Origin: a virus
Direction: 5' to 3' (one strand)
Virus record (IMG/VR): IMGVR_UViG_3300030060_003910
Coordinates: 1-64,000 of that record
DNA: 64,000 nt
Part shown: positions 5,450-49,801 of the stretch, in pieces
How positions within the stretch are numbered: the first letter of the stretch is position 1
Layout of the letters: each line of letters opens with the position of its first letter
The notes under the pieces: generated by a model
Databases searched by the model: none
Told to the model about the DNA's origin: nothing
The model's input: the letters and a program-made list of their open reading frames with translations, nothing else
Program-made: the position numbers and the translations under genes

Positions 5450-6625
5450 CTACTCTCTCCACAATAATTGTTGCCACATTTTAGAAATAACCTTTTGGTC
5501 AGGCTTCATTCTAAAACCTCTTCCCTTTGGCTCATCATATGTTTTGGGGAATGCTTCCTTTGCTGTCTTTCTATAATCAAAGCCAGTCTTTCTTTCTTGT
5601 TGCCATGCTCGGAAACCATTTGGTGCTTTCTTGGTATTCTTTCGCTTTAAGGCTCTATCTACTAAATTGATAATGGGTAAAGCAGTAAGTTTAATTCCCG
5701 AAACTGTTCCAGCCAAAGAATCCTTCTTTCCTTCTTCACCGAGGTTGGCAACTTTTCTTGCCAATGCTTGTTCTTTAGAGTTAGGCTTAATTTCAAAATT
5801 TGTGGCTTTTAATTCAGACCGAATCTTATTTGTAAGCAATCTACCGCCAGCATTCCAATAATTGCTATCACGAACAATCTTATTAAAAAAGATTTCAACA
5901 GACCTAATTCCGTCAATGTCTTCACCATCAACATCTGTGGGAATTTTAACCACATCAACTTCAATTTCCATATCATCAAGGTCTTCAACGGCTTGCTTCA
6001 TAATCCACAAAAGACCTCTTGGATTCGCAAACTTAGTTTTGACTTTTGAGAATAATGCCTGATGGGGAGGATTTCCTCCTTCAAATCCATCAATGTCAAT
6101 AACATGGGCTAACCACTCATCAGGAACTTTAGTGACTCCTTTATTTCTTTTAGCATACCATTCTGTCGCATAATGTCCTTGAACTGTGCGAGGTCTTTTC
6201 TTTTGACCTGTTTTGGTTCTTTCAACCTCAGTAAAAAGAATAAATGCTGGGTCACGGGCTGGCCCTTTTGCACCAGCATCACTTCCTTCACGATAATAAC
6301 TTTCTAGTGTTTTAGCCTGTTCTCTAATAATTTCTTCATGTTCGCCATCAAATAAATCATTATCAACAATGGCTTCAATAAATTCAATAAACTCAATAGC
6401 ACCTTCACCATCACGGCCTTTATTTCTACTTCCTGCACGAATATTATTCATCATGTGCGTTTTGAGAAACATATACAAATTAGGAACATTCTTAACTTGC
6501 ATAGCCGCACCTGAAATACCTTGACAGGTCTGCCTCCAAGTGTTAAATTCATTCACGAACTTAAACTCGCTTTGATTGACTTTATTTCCTTTATGGGGCT
6601 GAAAGTTCTTTTTCTTCTTACTCAT
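5450..6625 (-). CDS. Hypothetical protein (391 aa) of the virion-type operon
   Basis: It starts MSKKKKNFQPHKG after GGAGGAAGG and overlaps the end of the 6618 gene as ATGA. The N-terminus is basic, the middle is mixed alpha/beta (about residues 170-260) and the C-terminus is basic. I see no Walker, nuclease or membrane signature. The absence of the tag alongside the 4473 gene may mark these two as a different class from the tagged proteins. Function not recognised. Confidence 0.82.
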   Translation of the reverse strand: MSKKKKNFQPHKGNKVNQSEFKFVNEFNTWRQTCQGISGAAMQVKNVPNLYMFLKTHMMNNIRAGSRNKGRDGEGAIEFIEFIEAIVDNDLFDGEHEEIIREQAKTLESYYREGSDAGAKGPARDPAFILFTEVERTKTGQKKRPRTVQGHYATEWYAKRNKGVTKVPDEWLAHVIDIDGFEGGNPPHQALFSKVKTKFANPRGLLWIMKQAVEDLDDMEIEVDVVKIPTDVDGEDIDGIRSVEIFFNKIVRDSNYWNAGGRLLTNKIRSELKATNFEIKPNSKEQALARKVANLGEEGKKDSLAGTVSGIKLTALPIINLVDRALKRKNTKKAPNGFRAWQQERKTGFDYRKTAKEAFPKTYDEPKGRGFRMKPDQKVISKMWQQLLWRE

Positions 6626-9040: not shown

Positions 9041-9179
9041 ACTGTATCATGTAATGGGAGTAGGCCATACCCTATAATGGTGGCGGTTTTACCCTTGTTT
9101 AATTAAAGTTAATGCTTCAAAATGAGGCTTTTAAAGCATTTCGCTCTAGATGAGAAGAAATAAAAAATTTGAAACAAAG

Positions 9180-9188
9180 CCATATGGT
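9180..9188. repeat. Degenerate copy of the ACCATATGGT element
   Basis: This copy reads CCATATGGT preceded by CAAAG. The left hairpin is absent and the right one is not convincing. It marks the low-coordinate edge of the array. The 492-base stretch 9041-9532 holds only this copy, the 9374 copy and a hairpin at 9412-9438; I see no gene in it. Confidence 0.5.
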
Positions 9189-9373
9189 TGTAGATTATGA
9201 ATGCGTGAAAAGTTGTTAATAACTACCATTTTCATCTATTGTCTTATTTTCATCTTCCTCTATGGTTTGCTATAGAACGCTATTGGTAACTACAAAATGT
9301 TTGTTTACAGCCATCTATGATGAATAACCATCTAATGCATCAACCCTAAATGATAGTTATTAAAAACATTAAA

Positions 9374-9397
9374 ACCATATGGTGTTGCTTTGCTATA
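9374..9397. repeat. ACCATATGGT element, partial (right half only)
   Basis: The core at 9374-9383 is followed by GCTTTG. The left arm lacks both the GGT partner and the CAAAG loop seen in other copies. Downstream at 9412-9438 a nine-base-pair hairpin (CGGGAAGAA paired with TTCTTCCCG) could be a terminator or processing site. Confidence 0.55.
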
Positions 9398-9532
9398 ACC
9401 CCCAAGTGGGACGGGAAGAATTACCTCTTTTCTTCCCGCCCCCGTCTATCCCTCTATTCCCTGTTTGTTTGGGTCATAGTGCCATAACGAGAGGCTCATG
9501 GCTAACGGGCCGTTTTTGGGGTGCTACGGACT

Positions 9533-9778
9533 TCATGCCGTATTTGTTGAGTTTAGTCTTACAGAAATGCCATAATCATTTGAACTAATTTGGTAAGGGT
9601 AAGGAATACCCCAAATTAACTCATAATGGTCTGTGAAAGCCTTGATGAAGCGGTCAGCATCAAAACGCCCATTATCACGACGAAACATGAGAATCATGCT
9701 TTCAATGACTGGAACGGTAATGCCGTTCAATTCTGCTAAGGTTTCTGCTATCTTTTGGTAGTGCCTTCGTTGGAACAT
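9533..9778 (-). CDS. Hypothetical protein in double-hairpin array
   Basis: I prefer the ATG at 9778 (MFQRRHYQKIAETL), because the longer frame from 9832 begins inside the ACCATATGGT repeat. The product is 81 residues, helical in the N-terminal half (AETLAELNGITVPVIESMI). It is the only gene between two repeat copies. Function unknown. Confidence 0.6.
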   Translation of the reverse strand: MFQRRHYQKIAETLAELNGITVPVIESMILMFRRDNGRFDADRFIKAFTDHYELIWGIPYPYQISSNDYGISVRLNSTNTA

Positions 9779-9805
9779 GATTAACCGCTTGATAAGCGGA
9801 TATAA

Positions 9806-9855
9806 GGTTTTATTACCAAAGTATGCAACCATATGGTAATTGCTTTGGTTTTACC
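9806..9855. repeat. Double-hairpin element, copy 3
   Basis: Left stem GGTT (9806-9809) pairs with AACC (9827-9830) around a loop containing CAAAG. Right stem GGTAA (9835-9839) pairs with TTACC (9851-9855) around a loop containing GCTTTG. The two stems share the ACCATATGGT junction at 9828-9837. Confidence 0.75.
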
Positions 9856-9892
9856 TCAAGCAGTTTAGACCCATGCTTAGGGGTATTTGGGT

Positions 9893-10177
9893 TTAGATAA
9901 CCTTAGAGGCTGCCCAAACCTCAAGTTTTTGGACATCTTCGCTTCCAAGCGGGTTTTTCCGTGGAGTTGGGAAACCATGTATTTCACGATAATCGCGCAG
10001 ACCAAAACGACGGTTCAATTTATTGTTCACATATCTTTTCATTTTTTGATACTTATTCCAATGTATGTGGGAATAACCCAAACCGTTCATCTCATTGAGA
10101 CAAAACTCTTCCCCGCTAATTTTGCACACTCCCGTTATGGCTTTTTCTTTGCTCATGTTAAACATTAAATTAATCAT
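9893..10177 (-). CDS. Hypothetical protein in double-hairpin array
   Basis: The product is up to 94 residues; starts at MINLM (10177) or MSKEK (10156) are both possible and neither has a clear ribosome-binding site. The C-terminal part (KLNRRFGLRDYREIHGFPTPRKNP) is basic and compact, a little like DNA-binding homing or integrase pieces, but I cannot assign it. It is the only gene between two repeat copies. Confidence 0.6.
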   Translation of the reverse strand: MINLMFNMSKEKAITGVCKISGEEFCLNEMNGLGYSHIHWNKYQKMKRYVNNKLNRRFGLRDYREIHGFPTPRKNPLGSEDVQKLEVWAASKVI

Positions 10178-10184
10178 TTATTAA

Positions 10185-10231
10185 GGTTTTATCCAAAGTA
10201 TCAAACCATATGGTTAGGCTTTGCATTAACC
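10185..10231. repeat. Double-hairpin element, copy 4
   Basis: Left stem GGTTT (10185-10189) pairs with AAACC (10203-10207) with CAAAG in the loop. Right stem GGTTA (10212-10216) pairs with TAACC (10227-10231) with GCTTTG in the loop. Core at 10205-10214. Confidence 0.8.
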
Positions 10232-10271
10232 CCATATAGGGGCTTCACAGGGGAAAACGCCGTGAAGAGCA

Positions 10272-10787
10272 TCATTCTTCCTCGGAAACCTCCATATCTG
10301 CTTTCACAGGGGTTGGCGTGATTTGAGGAACTCCGTCCTCAACAGCGAGTCCATCCCAACGATTTTCCTTAATGGCCTTGACCATGTAAGAATGCGCCTT
10401 ACTGCGGAAGGAATCAACCAATTCGCTAAAGGAGCCATAAACGCCGCCGGTTCGTCCGTGTGGCACAATAACCGATAGAATCATGTTGTGGTATTCAGTA
10501 GGGATTGCAGCAATAGCACCTGCCACTTTTTCCTCCACAGTCGCCAAAACAAGTTCCTGTTCGTCCGAAAGCGTGGATTCTCGCCCTCGTCGTGCCGCAG
10601 GAAAACCCTCCATAGTAGAGCCAATTGAACGAATAGCCGTCCAATAGGTGCTTCGCAGTTCATCTGTTCCCGCATTATCGCCCAAAGTGAGCGAAAGGAG
10701 AACAGCATTCAAGTTGTCGCTTTTTGGCTGTGTTTCAGCCCAAGCCCGCACTTTGTTTGTGTTCAATGTCCAATTCTTCATCTTCAT
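10272..10787 (-). CDS. Paralog A of a three-member family of unknown function
   Basis: The start at 10787 (MKMKNWTLNTNKV) follows AGAGGTGAAAAAA. The 171-residue product shares long identical blocks with the 11410 gene: LRSTYWTAIRSIGS, FPAARRGRES, PHGRTGG and a C-terminal RWDG. A more distant match lies in the 14170 gene. Residues about 40-150 form the conserved region, and the acidic tail ends SEEE. The basic AARRGRES and PHGRTGG segments could contact nucleic acid or phosphate. It sits alone between two double-hairpin elements. Function not recognised. Confidence 0.85.
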   Translation of the reverse strand: MKMKNWTLNTNKVRAWAETQPKSDNLNAVLLSLTLGDNAGTDELRSTYWTAIRSIGSTMEGFPAARRGRESTLSDEQELVLATVEEKVAGAIAAIPTEYHNMILSVIVPHGRTGGVYGSFSELVDSFRSKAHSYMVKAIKENRWDGLAVEDGVPQITPTPVKADMEVSEEE

Positions 10788-10868
10788 TTTTTTCACCTCT
10801 TTCCTAAAAAAGATACTCCGCGTCGTTTTTCCCCTGTGGAGCAATAACCCACGGAGGTTGGCGTATAA

Positions 10869-10922
10869 GGTTGTTCCTACGCAAAGCGATTAACAACCAT
10901 ATGGTGTTACTTTGTTAATACC
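10869..10922. repeat. Double-hairpin element, copy 5
   Basis: Left stem GGTTGTT (10869-10875) pairs with AACAACC (10892-10898) with CAAAGC in the loop. Right stem GGTGTTA (10903-10909) pairs with TAATACC (10916-10922), with one G-T pair, around CTTTGT. It lies between divergent genes, so it could carry control signals for both. Confidence 0.85.
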
Positions 10923-10952
10923 CTAAACAATACGACAAACAAGACATAAGGC

Positions 10953-11201
10953 ATGAACAAAGACAAAGCAAACCACATTATGAACCTTCTCGCAAAAACC
11001 TTTCCAAGCCTTGAACCGTGGCTTACTCGCCAATACATGGATGCCGTTATGAAGGATATGATACTCTATGCCGATGAACCACACGCTATGATTGGATTAG
11101 CGGAGATGGCCGCAAGTATTGAGGCTTTTGCTGATGCTATCGCTGAAGCCTCAATTGAAGAGATGTTTCATATTATGGCCGACATGATGGGGGGTGTTTG
11201 A
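10953..11201 (+). CDS. Small helical Met-rich protein (82 aa)
   Basis: The frame starts MNKDKANHIMNLLAK and is all-helical, with many Met and Ala residues (EASIEEMFHIMADMMGG). It is one of only two plus-strand genes in the array zone and directly precedes the 11202 gene. No ribosome-binding site is clear. Function unknown. Confidence 0.65.
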   Translation: MNKDKANHIMNLLAKTFPSLEPWLTRQYMDAVMKDMILYADEPHAMIGLAEMAASIEAFADAIAEASIEEMFHIMADMMGGV

Positions 11202-11363
11202 ATGATTTCCCATTGTCCTACTTGTAGTGCAGAATTGGCTAAAGATGATTTCATGTCTTTCGCTTTCATCTTAGGAGGCGATATTTGCCGTCATTGTCTT
11301 GATGACGGCCCTTCGGGGTCAAAAAAACAAAGCATGACCATATGGTTGTGCTTTGCCAGTTGA
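11202..11363 (+). CDS. Small zinc-ribbon protein overlapping a double-hairpin element
   Basis: The ATG directly follows the stop of the preceding gene. The 53-residue product has CPTC near residue 5 and CRHC near residue 31, a typical zinc-ribbon spacing. The last ten codons run through the ACCATATGGT element (encoding SMTIWLCFAS), so the repeat is translated here. A terminator-like hairpin (CCCCACC paired with GGTGGGG) follows at 11372-11389. Function unknown. Confidence 0.65.
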   Translation: MISHCPTCSAELAKDDFMSFAFILGGDICRHCLDDGPSGSKKQSMTIWLCFAS

Positions 11364-11373
11364 AAACGAAACC
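11317..11373. repeat. Double-hairpin element, copy 6
   Basis: Left stem GGTC (11317-11320) pairs with GACC (11336-11339). Right stem GGTT (11344-11347) pairs with AACC (11370-11373), with a longer loop. The arms CAAAGC (11328-11333) and GCTTTG (11350-11355) flank the core symmetrically at three bases, so this copy can also form one long 28-base palindrome. Confidence 0.75.
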
Positions 11374-11409
11374 CCACCCGTAGGTGGGGCTGCGAGGGGA
11401 AAACCCGCA

Positions 11410-11916
11410 TCATTCCTCTTCTTGACCTCCTTCAGCCGATTTCACGGCAGGTGGGGTCAATGCTGGGATTTCACCGTTCATGGTTCCATCCCAACGACCT
11501 TCTTTGTAGCCCTTAACGAGAGCGTCATAGGCCTTTTTGCCCATTGACTGAGCCAAAGCCATGATGTCCTCAAATGCGCCACCAGTTCGCCCATGAGGGA
11601 GAATAACGGCGGTAATGAGGTCAGGGTTAGAAATGCCCGCAAAGGCAGTAATAACCGCATTCTTCACAGAAGTCGCATTTAGGTCTACTTCTTCGGGCAA
11701 AGATGATTCTCGGCCTCGGCGGGCGGCTGGGAAATCATCATAAGGACTCCCAATTGAGCGAATTGCTGTCCAATAGGTGGAGCGCAAATCATCGCTATCC
11801 GTTGCATTTCCAAGTGTAATAGACAAAGAAATGGCTTGACCCACTTCTCCCCTATCTTCAAGTTCAAGCCATGCTTGAACCGCATTTGTGTTTTTAATCC
11901 AGTTGTCTTGCTTCAT
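11410..11916 (-). CDS. Paralog B of a three-member family of unknown function
   Basis: The start at 11916 (MKQDNWIKNTNAV) follows TTGGAGGAATTGATT. The 168-residue product is clearly homologous to the 10272 gene: both have LRSTYWTAIRSIGS, FPAARRGRES, PHGRTGG and RWDG in the same order and spacing. The acidic C-terminus ends GQEEE. It occupies its own inter-element cassette. Function not recognised. Confidence 0.85.
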   Translation of the reverse strand: MKQDNWIKNTNAVQAWLELEDRGEVGQAISLSITLGNATDSDDLRSTYWTAIRSIGSPYDDFPAARRGRESSLPEEVDLNATSVKNAVITAFAGISNPDLITAVILPHGRTGGAFEDIMALAQSMGKKAYDALVKGYKEGRWDGTMNGEIPALTPPAVKSAEGGQEEE

Positions 11917-11990
11917 AATCAATTCCTCCAAAAAGGTTTGATGCGTCCGTTTTCCCCTCGGAGCAACCAATGGCGACCATAGGCGACTAT

Positions 11991-12055
11991 GGTTGCTTTT
12001 TCATTAACACTCGCAAAGCGAAAAGCAACCATATGGTAATGCTTTGTTATTTACC
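11991..12055. repeat. Double-hairpin element, copy 7 (ten-base-pair left stem)
   Basis: Left stem GGTTGCTTTT (11991-12000) pairs perfectly with AAAAGCAACC (12021-12030) around a loop containing CAAAGC. Right stem GGTAA (12035-12039) pairs with TTACC (12051-12055) around GCTTTG. A further hairpin (ACCATAG with CTATGGT) lies just left, so this leader is highly structured. Confidence 0.85.
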
Positions 12056-12101
12056 CCAACGCTCCGCTATTAAGGGCATTTGAAGGGGTTATTACACTAT
12101 C

Positions 12102-12218
12102 TCACTCTTCTTCACTCTCCAAATGCGCCATCACGAGGATAGACGCTTCTATCACTAACCCATTCTTATTGCACAGCCTCACAAGGGCTTTAGCCAATTC
12201 GCACCAATCTACCTTCAT
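12102..12218 (-). CDS. Very small protein (38 aa) in double-hairpin array
   Basis: The ATG at 12216-12218 follows AGGAAGAACA. The product runs MKVDWCELAKALVRLC to HLESEEE, helical with two Cys residues and the acidic tail typical of this genome. It is the only gene between copies 7 and 8. Function unknown. Confidence 0.6.
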   Translation of the reverse strand: MKVDWCELAKALVRLCNKNGLVIEASILVMAHLESEEE

Positions 12219-12290
12219 TGTTCTTCCTAAGTGGGTATGCTCTTAATTTATTGATTTAAATCCTTAAAGCCCTAATTTAAATTTTAGCAG

Positions 12291-12352
12291 GGTATTTATA
12301 ACAAAGCAACAATACCATATGGTTGTTGTTATGCTTTGCAGTAATAAAAACC
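12291..12352. repeat. Double-hairpin element, copy 8
   Basis: Left stem GGTATT (12291-12296) pairs with AATACC (12311-12316) around CAAAGC. Right stem GGTT (12321-12324) pairs with AACC (12349-12352) around a longer loop containing GCTTTG. Core at 12314-12323. Confidence 0.75.
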
Positions 12353-12920
12353 ATAGCGAAGGCTTCACCAAACGGACAGGGAAAAGCCTATGTTGGTTGC
12401 TTTTTGCGCTAATTTGTCCGTTTGGTGTGTGAGTAAAATAAAACGCCGCCTACTCCATACATATCCGACTAACCACGCTACTTTGTTTCCTCTCTCGTAG
12501 TCTTGAATAAATCCCATGGAATAAATTCAAGCGGAGTTTCTTTCACGATTTATTGCGCTGTGTTTCGGCTTTGTTTCACTATGGTTTTATGGCCACTAAT
12601 AGCCATAGGAATGTGAAGGGTGGGATGAAGAATTGGGTATCTCCAAGTATGATGCGATTAGGTCGCACTCATTTTGAACGCTCTAATTGTTCTTAAGAGC
12701 CATACTGCCGACTTCGTGAAGTTGGTTTGTGGCCAACCGCCTTTTGAGCCTTAATCACTTTCACAGGGAACAATTAATCTATGCCACTTGGCCGTCATAA
12801 CTGCTTTGTGTCCCACAACAGGAGAAATCGCACATTACCCCCGTTCAAAGGGCATTGATGTTAATCCCCTCCGGGGGGAGCGACCCCCCGAAGCAATAGA
12901 ACCGAGCGATTATCGCTTAT
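12353..12920 (-). other. Gene-free cassette, candidate structured RNA
   Basis: No frame longer than about 25 codons with a start and ribosome-binding site is convincing on either strand, unlike the neighbouring cassettes. The segment has strong hairpins: CACCAAACGGACA (12366-12378) with its exact complement at 12415-12427, with an inner AAAAGCC pairing, and CGGGGGG (12872-12878) with CCCCCCG (12884-12890). The high-coordinate end resembles the structured leaders of copies 5 and 7, suggesting minus-strand transcription. It could be a non-coding RNA gene or a decayed cassette. I found no RNase P or SRP signature. Confidence 0.45.
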
Positions 12921-12974
12921 GGTTCTCCATGTGCAAAGCAATATAGAACCATATGGTTTTACTTTGGTTAAACC
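12921..12974. repeat. Double-hairpin element, copy 9
   Basis: Left stem GGTTCT (12921-12926) pairs with AGAACC (12945-12950) around CAAAGC. Right stem GGTTT (12955-12959) pairs with AAACC (12970-12974) around CTTTG. Core at 12948-12957. Confidence 0.85.
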
Positions 12975-13003
12975 CCTCAGCAATTGCTTCACAGGGGGGA
13001 TAA

Positions 13004-13366
13004 TCACCATTCATCCCTTGGGTTGAAGTAAGTGTGCCTACCTCGCTCATCGGAAGTAAATGAACCTCCCCAACCCATTTCATACGAGCGAGTTCGCATT
13101 TCGGCGTTGTCCTCACGAATGCGCTCATTGATGTCTTTTTGAGTGTAGTGGAACGGCTTGTGTTTCTTGGCGTATTCCTTCCAAATTGGAAGAATTTCAT
13201 CCAAGTCGTCCTTTTCCATCATCTCTTCGGAAACATCAGCAGTTTCCCAAAAGGTTTCGTAGATGGTATCTACGCAGAAGAAATACCTAATTCCTTCCTC
13301 GTTTCTAACCCATCGGTTTTCCCTATCTGTTTTTTCATCAAGCCATTCATAAAATGTTTTTGCCAT
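13004..13366 (-). CDS. Hypothetical protein (120 aa), highest-coordinate array cassette
   Basis: The frame starts MAKTFYEWLDEKTDRENRW after GGAGGTTAAAAA. It is charged and rich in Trp, Tyr and Phe, with a basic centre (AKKHKPFHYTQKDINER). No Cys motif or membrane segment is seen. It lies between copies 9 and 10. Function unknown. Confidence 0.75.
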   Translation of the reverse strand: MAKTFYEWLDEKTDRENRWVRNEEGIRYFFCVDTIYETFWETADVSEEMMEKDDLDEILPIWKEYAKKHKPFHYTQKDINERIREDNAEMRTRSYEMGWGGSFTSDERGRHTYFNPRDEW

Positions 13367-13408
13367 TTTTTAACCTCCAGCGAAAAAATGAGAGTAGTGG
13401 GTGCTTAA

Positions 13409-13493
13409 GGTATTATTTATTCAAAGTAAATAATACCATATGGTTTGAATAAATCAAAGAGCGCAGAATGTTCTTATTTAGCCATATTCAAAC
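13409..13493. repeat. Double-hairpin element, copy 10 (eleven-base-pair left stem)
   Basis: Left stem GGTATTATTTA (13409-13419) pairs perfectly with TAAATAATACC (13427-13437) around TTCAAAG. The right side has diverged: GTTTGAAT (13443-13450) can pair with ATTCAAAC (13486-13493), but CTTTG is missing. Copy 10 is the last of the array and adjoins the divergent control region. Confidence 0.75.
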
Positions 13494-13499
13494 ACGCTG

Positions 13500-13920
13500 A
13501 AACAGGGAGGATTTTCAGCCCCCGAAAATCCGTCAAATTTGACAGGGTGTTTCTCAACTGTGGTTATATTAATTCGTATTCATATTCTAATATGAATATT
13601 AGTATTATAGTAAAATAAATGGGTTGTCTCATGGTCGGGAGGGGATGAGATGAGACAACTCACGGAAGAATCATCAAGGTTATGCAACATAAGTAAAAAT
13701 ATATTTCTATTATCTCATTATCTCATCATCTCATCATCATCATCACTACTACTACACAACCCCTTATTTTCTTAGGGGTATGGAGAGAGAAACATTCCCC
13801 TTTTCGGATGAGATGAGATGAGACAACTTATTTTTGCAGGTTTCCGCAAGGTTCTAAGGGGTTGTGTTGCATAACCCCGTTGTCTCAAGATGAGACAACA
13901 GGCGAGACAATCTCATGCAG
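13500..13920. other. Divergent AT-rich repeat region, candidate replication origin/control region
   Basis: This gene-free region separates minus-strand from plus-strand transcription. It holds GTTGTCTCA (13623-13631, 13879-13887) and its complement TGAGACAAC (13651-13659, 13819-13827, 13891-13899), plus a near copy CGAGACAAT (13903-13911). Two pairs form hairpins, one with a three-base loop. It also has an ATTCATATT inverted repeat (13578-13597), the palindrome GTCAAATTTGAC (13532-13543), a GGATTTTC/GAAAATCC hairpin (13509-13531) and a run of TCATC and CTA triplets (13711-13757). Repeats in an AT-rich divergent region are typical of origins, but binding sites for a regulator would look the same. 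Confidence 0.5.
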
Positions 13921-14110
13921 GGGGGCTTTGAAGTTATTTCAATGGGCGAACTATTGTTGAAAATAAAATCTATTTGATTCAACAACCGAATTAATTTATC
14001 ATTTAAGTTAAAATATAAAGGTGAAAAAAGGGTAGGCAAACTGCTGAGTCATTAAGGAAAAGTTAGTAATTCCCTCAAAGGAAGTGCATTCGGAGGCATT
14101 TCAGGACTCC

Positions 14111-14169: not shown

Positions 14170-14646
14170 ATGGATGATACCACATGGGAAAGCCTCGTCA
14201 TTGAGGTGAACGAATACCTAGAAGCCGACACTACGCTTGATGCTGGATTGCGTCAGGTCGTTGAACTGAACCTGCAAATTGGGACAAACAACCCCGATGA
14301 GCGAACTGCCGCCGAAGGTGCGCTTAAAGCACTTTTGAAGGGAAGAGATGGAACCCCGTTCCGCCGAGGCCAAAAGAGCGCAGTTCCAGCCGCAGTTCGT
14401 GTTTCAATTGACCGAATCTGTGGAGTTGTTGAAGAAGCCTCTATTGGCTACTACAACCATGATGCAGTTATTGGTGCAATTACCATGAAGCACATCAAAT
14501 CTGGTGGCGGTGCTTATGATGACGCAGAAGATTACGCTTCTGCTGTTGTTAAGCGAACCCGAAACAATCTTGGCAAAATGTTCAAGAACGGTTCTTGGGA
14601 CGGTAGCGTTGATTCCCTTTTAGGAAACGACGAAACCACGCTTTGA
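14170..14646 (+). CDS. Distant paralog C of the array family
   Basis: The 158-residue product starts MDDTTWESLVIEV after AAGGAGAGATATAAC. It aligns loosely with the 10272 and 11410 proteins: a TPFRRGQKS segment matches FPAARRGRES, a KSGGGAYDD segment matches GRTGGVYGS, and a C-terminal SWDG matches RWDG. It has its own TATA box and a strong terminator downstream, so it is transcribed alone and may be abundant early. Function not recognised. Confidence 0.8.
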   Translation: MDDTTWESLVIEVNEYLEADTTLDAGLRQVVELNLQIGTNNPDERTAAEGALKALLKGRDGTPFRRGQKSAVPAAVRVSIDRICGVVEEASIGYYNHDAVIGAITMKHIKSGGGAYDDAEDYASAVVKRTRNNLGKMFKNGSWDGSVDSLLGNDETTL

Positions 14647-15207: not shown

Positions 15208-15291
15208 GCTGAGATGGCTGAGTTTGGTTAAAAGCGCAGGGCTTAAACTCCTGTCCATATTGGTTCGCAGGTTCAAATCCTGCTCTCAGCA
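15208..15291 (+). tRNA. tRNA-Leu (UAA)
   Basis: The acceptor GCTGAGA pairs with TCTCAGC. The anticodon stem CAGGG/TCCTG holds the loop CTTAAAC with anticodon TAA. A long variable region typical of Leu and a T-arm (GCAGG, TTCAAAT, CCTGC) follow. CCA is not encoded. No intron is seen. Confidence 0.92.
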
Positions 15292-15300
15292 CTTTCACAT

Positions 15301-20740: not shown

Positions 20741-20816
20741 GGGCGTATGGTGTAATAGGATAGCATTCTGGCCTTCTAAGCCGGAGATTCGGGTTCAAAT
20801 CCTGATACGCCCGCCA
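20741..20816 (+). tRNA. tRNA-Arg (UCU), CCA encoded
   Basis: The acceptor GGGCGTA pairs with TACGCCC. Anticodon stem CTGGC/GCCGG holds loop CTTCTAA with anticodon TCT. The T-arm has GGTTCAAATCC. Discriminator G and the terminal CCA are encoded. It would read AGA codons, which look frequent in the AT-rich genes here. Confidence 0.93.
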
Positions 20817-43273: not shown

Positions 43274-44977
43274 ATGATAATTAGCAGAATGAATGATGGA
43301 AATAGAATATATAAATCTTGGAGAGAAAACGGAGAGAAGAAACACGAGATTGTTCCCTTTCGGCCTTATTTTTATGTTAAGGAAGATAGCGCAGAACCAT
43401 TTGAATATAGACCTTCTAAATATATTAGTCGGGAGTTTGAGTATATTCGTGGTGATTGGGTTAATCTTGACAACGAGCCATTGAAGAAAGTCATTGTTGA
43501 AACTTCTCACGATATGCGAAAAGCAAAGGATATGTTCGGTGAAACCTATGAAGCCGATGTTCCCTTTCACTTTCGGTATTGTGTTGATGAGTTAGATGAA
43601 ATGCCAGAATACAAACTGCGTAAGTGGTATTGGGATATGGAATGGCAACAAGGTGGTGATTATCACGACCAATTGACTACAATCGTTGTTTATGATAATT
43701 ATGACGAAGAATACATTCAATGGGTTTGGTGGCCTAATTTCCCATTCAAGGAAGAAACCACCCAAAAAGATTTGGCTGATGTTATTTTAGAAGGAGATAT
43801 TTGCCCACCCTCTAACTGTGCTGTGCGTTTTTTCTCATCAGAAAAAGATATGATTGAGGATTTTATGAACACCATGATTGTAAAAGACCCCGATATGCTA
43901 ATTGCTTGGTTTGGTCATTTTGCTGATTTACCAAAGTTATTTGAACGGGCTTGTGCGGTGGGTCTTGACCCTCGCATTATTTCACCAACGGCAACAGTTA
44001 AGGGAGTAAAGTCTGTAAAAGATGGCTTTGAGTTTAAATATTCCGAAAAAGGTTTTTCACCAATTGAACAACCTATTGGTGGACGAATTACACTTTCTTT
44101 GGACTTGGCCTTTGAAAGACAATGGAATGATTCTCAAAGAGGAACATTACCTTCTCTTTCTCTTGATTATATCGGTGAAACTGTTCTTGATAAGAAGAAG
44201 TTAGTATCGGAAAAATTTCCTGATACTAACGAATTTTATCGTAGGGGTTGGTTAGAAGATACAGCAACTTATCTTCAATATGCTTTAAGAGATGTTGAAT
44301 TGATGGTTGAGATTGATGAAACTAATTTTTGTAGTGAAGCAATTGTTTCTCTTCAACGACTACTGAAAGCACCATTTGATGCTTGTTTCTATGCTTCTCA
44401 CATGGGTTCTATTTACTTTATGAGAAATGCTTGGTGGAAAGCACCAACGGGTAGCAAAGTGGATAAAAGACAAGAATATGAAGGTGCTATGATTTATGAC
44501 CCATTAAGTGAAGAAACAAACGGACTACATTTGAATGTAGCCGCTTTTGATTTTGCTGGTCTATACCCTTCAATGATGATTGCTCGCAATATCAGTTGGG
44601 AAACCAAATCTCAAGAACCAACAGAATTTGCAGTTAATATTCTAACTCCTAGAGACTTTAGCGAAACCAAGCATGAACAGATGCTCTATTACAAAACAGA
44701 TGAACTCGGCCTACTACCAAGAGCCGTCCTTGAATTGAAGGAGTTGCGAAATGAATATAAACGACTGATGCGAGAGGCAAGAGAAACGGATAATGGCGAG
44801 TATGTAAAGTGGTATAACAATCAAATGGCAGTAAAGCGATTAATGGCCTCTTTTTACGGCATTGTTGCTTTTCAAGGATTTGGATGGGCTGATGTAGATT
44901 TAGCAGCATCTATTACCGCAAGTGCAAGAGAAGCAATTAGATTAGCGGCGTTTGCTGCAAAGGAGATGGAAGTATGA
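43274..44977 (+). CDS. polB: DNA polymerase B, N-terminal piece (exonuclease, motifs A and B)
   Basis: The 567-residue piece holds the exonuclease domain (DMEW near residue 119, IAWFGHFADLP, YALRDVELM) and the polymerase motif A DFAGLYPSMMI. Motif B is KRLMASFYG, with Ala for the usual Asn. It stops after AFAAKEMEV, just before where motif C would begin. The missing part is the 45670 gene. The two pieces must associate to make an active polymerase. Confidence 0.92.
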   Translation: MIISRMNDGNRIYKSWRENGEKKHEIVPFRPYFYVKEDSAEPFEYRPSKYISREFEYIRGDWVNLDNEPLKKVIVETSHDMRKAKDMFGETYEADVPFHFRYCVDELDEMPEYKLRKWYWDMEWQQGGDYHDQLTTIVVYDNYDEEYIQWVWWPNFPFKEETTQKDLADVILEGDICPPSNCAVRFFSSEKDMIEDFMNTMIVKDPDMLIAWFGHFADLPKLFERACAVGLDPRIISPTATVKGVKSVKDGFEFKYSEKGFSPIEQPIGGRITLSLDLAFERQWNDSQRGTLPSLSLDYIGETVLDKKKLVSEKFPDTNEFYRRGWLEDTATYLQYALRDVELMVEIDETNFCSEAIVSLQRLLKAPFDACFYASHMGSIYFMRNAWWKAPTGSKVDKRQEYEGAMIYDPLSEETNGLHLNVAAFDFAGLYPSMMIARNISWETKSQEPTEFAVNILTPRDFSETKHEQMLYYKTDELGLLPRAVLELKELRNEYKRLMREARETDNGEYVKWYNNQMAVKRLMASFYGIVAFQGFGWADVDLAASITASAREAIRLAAFAAKEMEV

Positions 44978-45183
44978 ATAGTTTTTGTAAAAATTGGATT
45001 AATCAAGAAATACCTAAAATGCCAGATGGATTTACTGCATCACAAATGCACAGTAGGCTATCTAATTTAGGTAAAACTTTAAAGTATCTTGAGAATACGA
45101 CTAGCATTGGGGTTTATCTCAAAAGACACGAAGCCTTAAATATGAATGATTCATCGGGAATTAGAACCTATTGGAGGAAATAA
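44974..45183 (+). CDS. Small protein inside the split polymerase locus (69 aa)
   Basis: It starts MNSFCKNWINQEIPKMP, coupled by ATGA to the polymerase piece. Helical and basic. Function unknown. Confidence 0.68.
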   Translation: MNSFCKNWINQEIPKMPDGFTASQMHSRLSNLGKTLKYLENTTSIGVYLKRHEALNMNDSSGIRTYWRK

Positions 45184-45185
45184 AT

Positions 45186-45359
45186 ATGAAAACAAAATAT
45201 ATTACAGTTAAATTATCTTATGATACAGAAGAAACCTATGATATTACAATGCAGGAAGTCAAAGAGATTTTTCAAATGATGAATAATCTCAAGAGACACG
45301 CTATCATTGTAGATGTTGAACAAGGTGTGAATGAAAATGATGATGGACAGGACGAATGA
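45186..45359 (+). CDS. Small acidic protein inside the split polymerase locus (57 aa)
   Basis: It starts MKTKYITVKLSYDTEETYDI after TTGGAGGAAATAAAT. Short strands, then an acidic tail ENDDGQDE. Function unknown. Confidence 0.68.
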   Translation: MKTKYITVKLSYDTEETYDITMQEVKEIFQMMNNLKRHAIIVDVEQGVNENDDGQDE

Positions 45360-45378
45360 ATTGCTGGAGGAATTATTG

Positions 45379-45468
45379 ATGATGATTAACAGAAGCAACA
45401 AAATTCTAATGATGGTAAATGTCGTCAATATCGCAACAATTATTACATTACTGGTGGTGGTATTATGA
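45379..45468 (+). CDS. Hydrophobic microprotein (29 aa)
   Basis: It starts MMINRSNKILMM after GGAGGAATTATTG, with one hydrophobic stretch (VVNIATIITLLVVVL) to the end. It overlaps the next gene as ATGA, which supports translation. Probably membrane-inserted. Confidence 0.5.
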   Translation: MMINRSNKILMMVNVVNIATIITLLVVVL

Positions 45469-45665
45469 AAGAAGAAAAACTATATTTAGAAACATTGAAA
45501 GAAATAAGAGACATGAAAGAATATGTAAAGGACGAGATTGATTCCCTGTTTGTGGAATTACAAAAACTTCGTGATATGCGAGGAGCAATTGAAGAATTAC
45601 AAGAAGAAGTGGCGAAACTTGCAGGTGAACCTGTTGGTATGCTCTTTACTAATTATTGGGCGTGA
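45465..45665 (+). CDS. Small coiled-coil protein (66 aa)
   Basis: It starts MKEEKLYLETLKEIRDM and is a charged heptad-like helix. It is the last of four small genes between the polymerase pieces. Function unknown. Confidence 0.68.
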   Translation: MKEEKLYLETLKEIRDMKEYVKDEIDSLFVELQKLRDMRGAIEELQEEVAKLAGEPVGMLFTNYWA

Positions 45666-45669
45666 TTGA

Positions 45670-46563
45670 ATGAAAGTGGTTTATGGACATACTGATTCTA
45701 TCTATGTGCAAATTGATTCCGTAGAAGCCGCACAAAAAGCAATTAAGGTGATTGAAGATGAAGTCAAAAAAAGTTTCCCGAATATTCTCGGACTTGAACA
45801 GCATCCCGTTAGTCTGGAGTTTGAGAAGTATTATTCGGCGTTGGGTGTTGGAACAACCAAAAACAGAAACGCAGGGTTAGTATCTTGGGAAGATGGAGAA
45901 TGGTTAGAAAAGCCCAAGTTTAGTATGACTGGATTTACGGCAAAGCGTGTTAGTGAAACTAAATTGGCTAAACATATTCAAACTGAAACTCTCAAAATGT
46001 GGGTTGAAGGTAAAACACAAGCAGAAATTGTGCATTATCTACACCGACAATATACAATGGTTCTTGATGGAGAATTGAGTATAATGCCTCTTATCAAAAG
46101 AAGCCGTCTGAGGGAAAATAGGTTCATGGTAAAATGCCCCGAATGTAATACAAAGTATCATGTTCGTGATTGTATTAACTTGAAACATAAGGTATGTGAA
46201 AAGTGTGCAACAGAAACGACTAGATTTACAACCCTTGATGGAAAGAAACCCACATTTGGTGCTGGTATTGCAGGTGTTTTGTATGCTTGGGAAAAGAAAG
46301 ACACTAATTTTGATGATTCTTATATTTATTTAAAAGTAAAGGGCGTAAATGATTTTTATACTCATCCTTTAACGCAAGAAAGGCGAGAAGTTGAATACTT
46401 ATCAGGCACAACCGCTAAGGATTTTAGCGGTTATCGTCCAGACCTTGCGTTCTATGCCTCGCAGGTGGTAAAGAAGGCCGAACCGATTTTCAAGGCGATG
46501 GATTGGGATATATCGGCCATACGGACGGGGAGATTACAGGCAAGCCTTGATGAATGGTGGTGA
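45670..46563 (+). CDS. polB: DNA polymerase B, C-terminal piece (motif C and thumb)
   Basis: The 297-residue piece starts MKVVYGHTDSIYVQI, so motif C (usually YGDTDS) lies at its very start, with His replacing the first Asp. The second Asp, the metal ligand in well-studied enzymes, is kept. MTGFTAKRVSETKL is the KKRY-like palm element. An insertion with CPEC and CEKC (about residues 155-185) makes a zinc ribbon in the thumb region. Together with the 43274 piece it completes one polymerase with no residues missing at the join. Confidence 0.9.
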   Translation: MKVVYGHTDSIYVQIDSVEAAQKAIKVIEDEVKKSFPNILGLEQHPVSLEFEKYYSALGVGTTKNRNAGLVSWEDGEWLEKPKFSMTGFTAKRVSETKLAKHIQTETLKMWVEGKTQAEIVHYLHRQYTMVLDGELSIMPLIKRSRLRENRFMVKCPECNTKYHVRDCINLKHKVCEKCATETTRFTTLDGKKPTFGAGIAGVLYAWEKKDTNFDDSYIYLKVKGVNDFYTHPLTQERREVEYLSGTTAKDFSGYRPDLAFYASQVVKKAEPIFKAMDWDISAIRTGRLQASLDEWW

Positions 46564-48170: not shown

Positions 48171-49125
48171 TTATGCTAACTTTATTAATGCTCAAAATAA
48201 CAGGACGAATGTATATACTACGGTCTATGATTTCCAGCATTTTTCAGAGAAAGCGAAGGTAGAATCCTCAGTAATTATTGATAGAATTTTTCTTGATTTT
48301 GATGCACACGAAGATAAATTAGATTTGGCTTGGAGGGATGTTAAAGTGGTAATGCAATTAGTTCATCAAAAAGATTATCTACATACGCTTTTCTTTTCGG
48401 GTCGTGGCTTTCATCTATTTTTGTTCGGTAAGAAAACAAATAATATGAGAAATGTTCAAACTCTTTTCCGAGAGATTAAAGCATATCTCTCATCAAAAGT
48501 TGGTAGTAAAAATACACTTGATGATAGGGTAGGACAAACAACAAGATTACGCCGTATTCCTAATACGGTAAATATGTCATCTTCTGACGAAAACGGCAAA
48601 CCCTATTATTGCATACCCTTGACACAGTTTGACCTTATGTGTGAACTTGAAGATATTCTTGAGATTGCGAAAGAACCCCGCCTTATCCCCTTCCAAAAGG
48701 GTGGAAAAAACGAGGTGTTGTTTCCCGATGCACCCCCCATTGAGGCGATAGAGGGCGAGGTTTCCGTTCCTGATACGGTAGGAAAACTCCCAATGTTGCC
48801 CTGTTTGCATAATGCGGTAATGACGGAGAATCCTTCACATATGGCGAGAGCATACCTTGTTTCTTGGTATCGTGATTTGCTTTCGGGCTATCGTGATTTA
48901 TCTTCGGGACAAGAAAAAATGAAAGTGCTGAACTTAGTGGTTGAAGAACTTGAAAGAGTATTTTCTGAATCTGATTCGGTATGGCTTGATTGGGATAAAA
49001 ACGAAACTAGAAAACACGCAAGATTTACAGTATTCAATAACTACAATACGCCTCATTGTGATAAATTGATTAGTGATGGTTTTTGTGTTGGTAAATGTTG
49101 GAGGTATCACGGTGCTAGTAATTGA
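48085..49125 (+). CDS. Archaeo-eukaryotic primase, PriS-PriL fusion
   Basis: The start at 48085 (MKFPREVWAG) follows GGAGGTAATACAA. The catalytic half has IFLDFDAHE (metal-binding DxD) and FFSGRGFHLFLF, the sGxGxH motif of small primase subunits. The second half has PMLPCLHNAV, HMARAYLVS and HCDKL...FCVGKC, matching the four-Cys iron-sulfur domain of the large subunit. One 346-residue chain thus carries both functions. It makes primers for PolB. Confidence 0.85.
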   Translation: MKFPREVWAGSHIKNAPQMKRKVVLARNDYANFINAQNNRTNVYTTVYDFQHFSEKAKVESSVIIDRIFLDFDAHEDKLDLAWRDVKVVMQLVHQKDYLHTLFFSGRGFHLFLFGKKTNNMRNVQTLFREIKAYLSSKVGSKNTLDDRVGQTTRLRRIPNTVNMSSSDENGKPYYCIPLTQFDLMCELEDILEIAKEPRLIPFQKGGKNEVLFPDAPPIEAIEGEVSVPDTVGKLPMLPCLHNAVMTENPSHMARAYLVSWYRDLLSGYRDLSSGQEKMKVLNLVVEELERVFSESDSVWLDWDKNETRKHARFTVFNNYNTPHCDKLISDGFCVGKCWRYHGASN

Positions 49126-49801
49126 TTCAAGAGAGAAGTCCAAATTAGCCAAACTGGTTATGCAAAAAGCAAAGGGCTTAAATATACAATACGAACAGCG
49201 TTGGATTGAGATAGGCGACTACATCTACGATGATGTTTGTTTTGAAGCAAAATCAACAACGGACTTTTTGGGTTCAGTAATGACAAAAAGATTATGGACG
49301 CAAATTGACAATATGGATAGACACTATAAAACAAATGTAGTGATTATTCATGGTAGTCTTGATGAAGCCATTATGAATGTAATTGAGAACTCTGGAAGCA
49401 ATATGCCAATTGGAACAAGAAGTATAATGCTTAACAATAAATTTCTTGGTGCAATTGGTAGACTTATTCTTGATACAGATGTAAAACCAGTATGGGTTGA
49501 AACAGAAGAAGAAGCGGCTTTGATTATTACAGCAGTATGTAAAATGAAACCAATGACAAGAGATGTAATTGCGCCGCAAGTATTCAAGAGATTAACTACT
49601 GATGATTTGCGACTAGATTTGCTATCCAGCATTAAAGGCGTATCAATTAAGAAAGCAAAAGAATTAATAAAACAATTTGGTTCCATTATGGAAATAGGTG
49701 AGTGTTCAGAATATGAATTACAAGCCATTGAAGGAATCGGAGAAACCTTAGCCAAAAGAATACTCTCCACATTAAACTCGGAAGAGAAGGTGAAAATATG
49801 A
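49112..49801 (+). CDS. XPF/ERCC4-like nuclease, GTG start
   Basis: GTG at 49112 follows TTGGAGGTATCAC. The 229-residue protein starts LVIDSREKSKLAK and continues GDYIYDDVCFEAKSTTDF, equivalent to GDxxxxxxxxxERKxxxDF of ERCC4 nucleases (here EAK). A C-terminal pair of helix-hairpin-helix motifs (LLSSIKGVSIKKAKELIKQF and LQAIEGIGETLAKRI) binds DNA. It cuts branched or flap DNA. Overlaps the primase by 14 bases. Confidence 0.87.
   Translation: MLVIDSREKSKLAKLVMQKAKGLNIQYEQRWIEIGDYIYDDVCFEAKSTTDFLGSVMTKRLWTQIDNMDRHYKTNVVIIHGSLDEAIMNVIENSGSNMPIGTRSIMLNNKFLGAIGRLILDTDVKPVWVETEEEAALIITAVCKMKPMTRDVIAPQVFKRLTTDDLRLDLLSSIKGVSIKKAKELIKQFGSIMEIGECSEYELQAIEGIGETLAKRILSTLNSEEKVKI

Follow-up and report, generated by a model that had tools for sequence, protein, structure and literature searches.

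The window analysed here comprises the first 64,000 nucleotides of the 94,354-bp virus record IMGVR_UViG_3300030060_003910. Its subject is a cluster of double-hairpin sites, each centred on the palindromic core ACCATATGGT. These sites bound mobile gene cassettes, and the cassettes have been inserted, relocated and inverted exactly at the core.

Sites and cassettes in the window

A scan allowing up to one mismatch to ACCATATGGT found 10 cores within positions 9179–13444, where 1.55 would be expected at that stringency. The cores start at 9179 (one mismatch), 9374, 9828, 10205, 10896, 11337, 12028, 12314, 12948 and 13435. Seven of the 10 are flanked as CAAAG..ACCATATGGT..CTTTG, the chance expectation being 0. 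Elsewhere in the window the only match was a single-mismatch core at 5615, which lacks the invariant ATAT, and the remainder of the 94-kb record holds no exact 10-bp core. The sequence-only reading had described an array of about ten copies with paired but differing left stems, and this description was borne out: the listed left stems are present, among them GGTTGTT/AACAACC, GGTTGCTTTT/AAAAGCAACC and GGTATTATTTA/TAAATAATACC, and five right stems pair as well. Its further statement that every copy is a double hairpin applies to most sites. The exceptions mark the ends of the array: a left hairpin is missing from the two leftmost sites, and the CTTTG half from the rightmost. The sites, which have no strand of their own, are as follows.

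9158–9187, minus strand: fixed array end (the terminus), ATAT-GGCTTTGTTTCAAATTTTTTATTT; one copy in each of 57 loci
9180–9187: core of site 1 (GCCATATGGT) at the terminus, from the core scan
9375–9400: site 2, core 9375–9382 (ACCATATGGT at 9374–9383), right half 9381–9400, without a left hairpin
9806–9855: site 3, left GGTT..AACC, core 9829–9836, right GGTAA..TTACC
10185–10231: site 4, left GGTTT..AAACC, core 10206–10213, right GGTTA..TAACC
10869–10922: site 5, left GGTTGTT..AACAACC, core 10897–10904, right GGTGTTA..TAATACC
11317–11373: site 6, left GGTCA..TGACC, core 11338–11345, right GGTT..AACC
11991–12055: site 7, left GGTTGCTTTT..AAAAGCAACC, core 12029–12036, right GGTAA..TTACC; DNA fold z −4.06 (left) and −2.45 (right)
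12291–12352: site 8, left GGTATT..AATACC, core 12315–12322, right GGTT..AACC
12921–12974: site 9, left GGTTCT..AGAACC, core 12949–12956, right GGTTT..AAACC
13409–13455: site 10, the array's other end, left GGTATTATTTA..TAAATAATACC, core 13436–13443, non-canonical outer half GGTTTGAATAAATC; DNA fold z of the left hairpin −6.86

The same elements had been expected in related viruses, and the site does occur on marine viral contigs, in at least 120 stretches. Together with the window these gave a set of about 600 sites in 121 sequences, some of the stretches sharing a contig. The units between sites have a median length of 555 bp and usually hold one small open reading frame (ORF), the longest ORF filling 66% of the unit; these longest ORFs are split 216/204 between the strands. 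The units of the window, some without a strand, are listed with the fixed gene that flanks them.

9180–9380: unit 1, about 195 bp beside the terminus, no ORF recognised; counterpart in contig A, 96%
9381–9830, minus strand: cassette 2, ORF 9533–9778 (minus), from a family of 17 units
9835–10207, minus strand: cassette 3, ORF 9893–10177 (minus)
10212–10898, minus strand: cassette 4, ORF 10272–10844 (minus), family 0 protein
10903–11339, plus strand: cassette 5, ORF 10953–11201 (plus), orientation opposite to its neighbours
11344–12030, minus strand: cassette 6, ORF 11410–11970 (minus), family 0 protein, moved to another place in contig B
12035–12316: unit 7, which lies the other way round in contig A
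12321–12950: unit 8
12955–13437, minus strand: cassette 9, ORF 13004–13366 (minus)
14170–14646, plus strand: fixed flanking family 0 copy, with matches in 3/3 complete relatives at 64–67% identity

A TATA-like box immediately follows the ACC of the 5' half, and an in-frame ATG lies 20–40 nt past the ACC in 116 distinct of 302 5' halves, mostly at 27–31 nt, a spacing that resembles a leaderless archaeal message. The box and the ATG downstream of the 5' hairpin suggest that many cassettes have a promoter of their own and that the hairpin lies outside the message. The 3' halves have a different downstream composition from the 5' halves, and GC-rich inverted repeats follow some of them.

Half-site structure and rearrangement at ATAT

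Read outward from the core, each half-site is a self-pairing GGTn-CTTTG-n'ACC. The sequence-only reading had predicted that the stems would covary in a larger alignment, as they do: for pairs 4–10 the z scores are 18.1, 14.8, 9.7, 5.0, 5.3, 5.0 and 2.5 (447 dereplicated halves), against a shuffling null that does not remove phylogeny, the halves being very diverse (944 after dereplication). Pairing is register-specific, with 61% Watson-Crick pairs in register versus 22–34% at a slide of 1–3 nt, and 319 of the 321 full sites have ATAT as their spacer. Within the stems, 173 G-T pairs were seen and 217 expected, compared with 64 A-C pairs seen and 114 expected; the smaller depletion of G-T lends weak support to the CTTTG strand being the one that folds. 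Halves facing into the array form the canonical hairpin in 753 of 1041 cases versus 18 of 97 for outer halves. The canonical hairpin half is thus a property of the neighbouring cassette and not of the site.

The covariation had been taken as a sign of selection on a folded form rather than on a plain binding site, and the covarying stems agree with this. The RNA version of that claim is unlikely for the 5' halves because the hairpin precedes both the TATA-like box and the start codon, which would place it upstream of the transcript. The proposal that the element switches between two hairpins and one long palindrome fared worse. It is unsupported because complementarity between the two halves of a site is confined to ACCATATGGT and CAAAG/CTTTG; at positions 4 and 5 the halves match below chance (z −2.8 and −3.5). 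As a separate observation, the two halves of one site avoid identical stems, as if selection opposed long perfect palindromes.

Breakpoints were tested within arrays, with shifted sites as the null. In this version of the test, which was the decisive one, 113 alignment ends lay no more than 8 bp from a core in both partners, compared with 0.65 (maximum 4) for shifted sites; an earlier version over whole loci gave a weak signal. Alignments extend to the core and seldom end just before it. The window and two related contigs, A and B, share units in the following orders.

Window: T-1-2-3-4-5-6-7-8-9-R
Contig A: T-1-2-3-4-5-6-X-7(inverted)-8-9-R
Contig B: T-b1-6-b3-2-b5-4-X-8-b9-R

Every cassette junction among the three falls at a core, and the half-sites move with their cassettes. 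A second comparison was provided by contigs G050 and G051, which are 82–93% identical around the array. One unit has moved to the other end of the block, and a second is inverted at 91% BLAST identity (95% by MAFFT), taking a variant core base (GAT for GGT) along. Since the variant base travelled with the inverted unit, the exchange can be placed inside ATAT or at the adjacent base. Measured against the terminus, members of a gene family point in different directions in 75 of 256 pairs where the family belongs to the arrays, and in 8 of 724 where it belongs to the flanks. A neighbour-conservation statistic was uninformative, in that its flank-gene control did no better.

Fixed end and viral background

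The terminus has the form ATAT-G(G)CTTTG..CAAATTTTTTATTT and occurs once per locus in 57 loci, with the array sites on its array side. A separate, stricter pattern found one copy in each of 25 contigs, and in 8 further terminus loci with sequence on that side the sites were again confined to the array side. The half-site adjoining the terminus is GGTTG in 55 of the 57 loci; almost without exception it reads GGTTG[TG][AG], regardless of the neighbouring cassette. In the terminus CTTTG comes right after GG with no stem, which suggests that CTTTG and ATAT are what is read and that the stem serves as a positioner.

The terminus faces leftward genes, and a UvrD helicase lies on its opposite side. 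Each array seen has one conserved end of this kind and is located at a flip in GC skew. In the window the skew reverses at about 14 kb, shortly past the array, which therefore lies where one module gives way to the other, and possibly at an origin. Beside the array at the skew flip is a long non-coding, repeat-rich stretch at 13560–13960 (gagatgagacaac, ATCTCATC), a candidate replication origin.

The record encodes a chaperonin, a family B DNA polymerase, a clamp loader, a TFIIB-like protein and an ERCC4 nuclease, and has two modules transcribed in opposite directions. Magroviruses, the viruses of the abundant surface-ocean archaea Poseidoniales, are known from metagenomes only; the International Committee on Taxonomy of Viruses account gives genomes of 90–110 kb and opposite modules, and no integrase is described in the family (PMC12999244). 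Judged by gene content, the window's virus fits a magrovirus. Its nuclease gene bears on the mechanism discussed below.

49073–49801, plus strand: ERCC4 (XPF-type) nuclease with a helix-hairpin-helix domain, candidate processing enzyme

A host origin of the site was considered and rejected: 257 Gb of genome contigs from bacteria and archaea gave 26 stretches, 25 of them single-site and in unrelated bacteria, and the sole array sits on a contig with virus genes. Other observations concern the genomes themselves. The DNA polymerase of the window (43274–46563) is seemingly split into ORFs 43274–44977 and 45670–46563, about 690 bp apart, and ARAGORN placed tRNA-Leu (taa) at 15208–15292 and tRNA-Arg (tct) at 20741–20816. 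A contig deposited as part of an Altibacter metagenome-assembled genome (L125, NZTP01000027.1) holds virus genes (up to 96% protein identity) besides a cassette array and a terminus, and is probably a misbinned virus contig. The 184,733-bp IMGVR_UViG_3300021958_000021 (L074, L011, L114) contains two ERCC4 genes as well as two separate arrays, and is probably two virus genomes joined.

Family 0, for which the model is all-helical, accounts for two cassettes and one fixed gene beside the array, and for 106 unit ORFs in 70 loci. Neither its protein (186 aa; predicted template-modelling score, pTM, 0.50) nor a 391-aa neighbour protein (model pTM 0.75) gave a significant structural match or a match in profile libraries. 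In a phage database the array region had no DNA match and two of its genes had no protein match.

Candidate mechanisms and known systems

We read the elements as the junction sites of an integron-like gene-cassette array in magrovirus-like viruses, and on sequence comparison we put the probability of this reading at about 0.7. Each cassette ends in inverted half-sites, GGTn-CTTTG-n'ACC on one side and its reverse complement on the other, and adjoining cassettes join as ACC-ATAT-GGT. Through exchange inside ATAT, cassettes are inserted, lost, moved or inverted while the conserved terminus stays put. The comparisons show the site structure, the covariation, the cassette anatomy, the ATAT junctions, relocation and inversion, and the fixed end. 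Beyond this, the hairpins would act as folded DNA, and a dedicated enzyme may read the CTTTG-bearing hairpin beside ATAT and join the ends conservatively. The candidates for this role are a virus-encoded XPF/ERCC4-type structure-specific nuclease, an unrecognised recombinase and a host enzyme. Of 50 site-bearing records, 46 encode an ERCC4/XPF-like nuclease, which could cut such hairpin structures; it is kept as a candidate only, because it may be just a replication gene.

Several points weigh against this reading. No candidate recombinase was found in the 50 site-bearing records among the families searched: tyrosine recombinase (PF00589; control genomes 14/14 positive), serine recombinase of the resolvase/invertase type (PF00239), Y1 (HUH) transposase (PF01797) and Cas1-type casposase (PF01867) each scored 0/50, Hjc was absent from all 50, and no convincing conserved protein had an HUH motif. 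Contig pairs at least 94% identical are largely collinear, so turnover must be slow or rare. Many stems are weak as free DNA (several in the window at −1 to −3 kcal/mol) and a few are strong, so that folding, if any, would probably depend on a protein or on single strands being exposed. Short-homology recombination would also yield junctions at the shared 10-bp core, and all the data are metagenomic assemblies.

The main rival is shuffling in the manner of promoter/stem-loop repeats (PeSLs), directional elements with one hairpin per promoter. Ordinary homologous or short-homology recombination between such repeats would move genes with no dedicated enzyme, and the hairpins would be kept for transcription (insulating, terminating or regulating), exchange being a by-product. 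We consider this unlikely but worth keeping in view: promoters adjoin the half-sites here, shuffling is slow, and the families searched yielded no recombinase. PeSLs are reported to shuffle genes in T4-type phages, an intergenic stem-loop and promoter bounding the shuffled modules (PMC3950731, PMC4503421), and the haloarchaeal virus HGTV-1 has an inverted repeat and then a TATA-like box ahead of many small genes. However, our sites share only about 10 contiguous bp and two 5-bp motifs, every unit has a hairpin at each end, even at 3' ends remote from the promoter, and the site is symmetric, with a nearly invariant ATAT, a terminus at one fixed end and inversion of units. The stems also covary rather than being conserved, whereas the HGTV-1 stem is largely fixed (CTCCTCGTGGCACGAGGAG) and belongs to a directional motif that occurs once per promoter and lacks a palindromic core or paired half-sites.

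Two further explanations are less probable. The ends of IS200/IS605 elements and REP/BIME sequences have hairpins abutting a conserved tetranucleotide and paired inverted hairpins, and the units here might be non-autonomous elements moved by single-strand transposition (peel and paste), with ATAT as the cleavage and target tetranucleotide and hairpins marking the ends. Hairpins do abut the tetranucleotide on both sides, G-T is tolerated mildly more than A-C, as if the CTTTG strand folds, and the array is close to the place where GC skew switches. This explanation is nonetheless improbable, given the Y1 and HUH results above, the lack of a RAYT here, and the confinement of the units to one array, with no further ACCATATGGT core in the window or the rest of the record, where dispersed units would be expected. 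Cis-acting RNA hairpins, processing or stabilising each mRNA from its flanks, would account for covarying stems, and the 3' halves, some followed by GC-rich inverted repeats, would be transcribed. We regard this as very improbable: the TATA-like box, the start codon and the inferred transcript start all come after the 5' half, the element has reverse-complement symmetry and is present whatever the gene direction, an Rfam search gave no family at threshold, and the ATAT breakpoints would be left unexplained.

No account of such sites in magroviruses turned up in a literature search, which was not exhaustive for subscription papers. The chances seem to us about even that this is an unreported cassette system, in which a virus- or host-encoded enzyme reads folded DNA half-sites, capturing, shuffling and inverting cassettes relative to a fixed terminus, making it a non-homologous counterpart of the integron in archaeal viruses. 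Its novelty as a category rests on that preferred mechanism; under PeSL-like shuffling it would be a variant of something known. A site-bounded array would explain how magroviruses swap small accessory genes, and would mark where such genes, with candidate roles in host takeover or counter-defence, are to be found. The cassette mechanism would also point to recombination chemistry outside every enzyme family searched and the enzyme, if found, could serve as a tool, being a cassette recombinase of archaeal viruses that reads structure.

Among systems with dedicated enzymes, serine-recombinase inversion systems and shufflons differ from the array in their resolvase/invertase gene, and casposons in their Cas1-type casposase, both 0/50 here. 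Bacterial integrons and attC cassette arrays, of which phages too have examples, both integrons and integrase-less attC clusters (PMC9892861), work in a similar way. The differences are several, the first two concerning the features that define an integron: window-type arrays are without an integrase (0/50 records), and attC R'/R'' boxes (RYYYAAC/GTTRRRY) occur in 4 of 599 sites (0.67%, against a background of 0.73%). The site is symmetric, made of two half-sites each owned by a cassette, the virus is of archaeal type, and the cassettes lie in both orientations, often with their own promoters. In common with integrons, there is an array of small-gene cassettes with a recombination site between each pair, the site stems covary, genomes hold common cassettes in different order, exchanged at the site, and one end is distinct and fixed, the terminus being analogous to the integron's primary site but unrelated to it.

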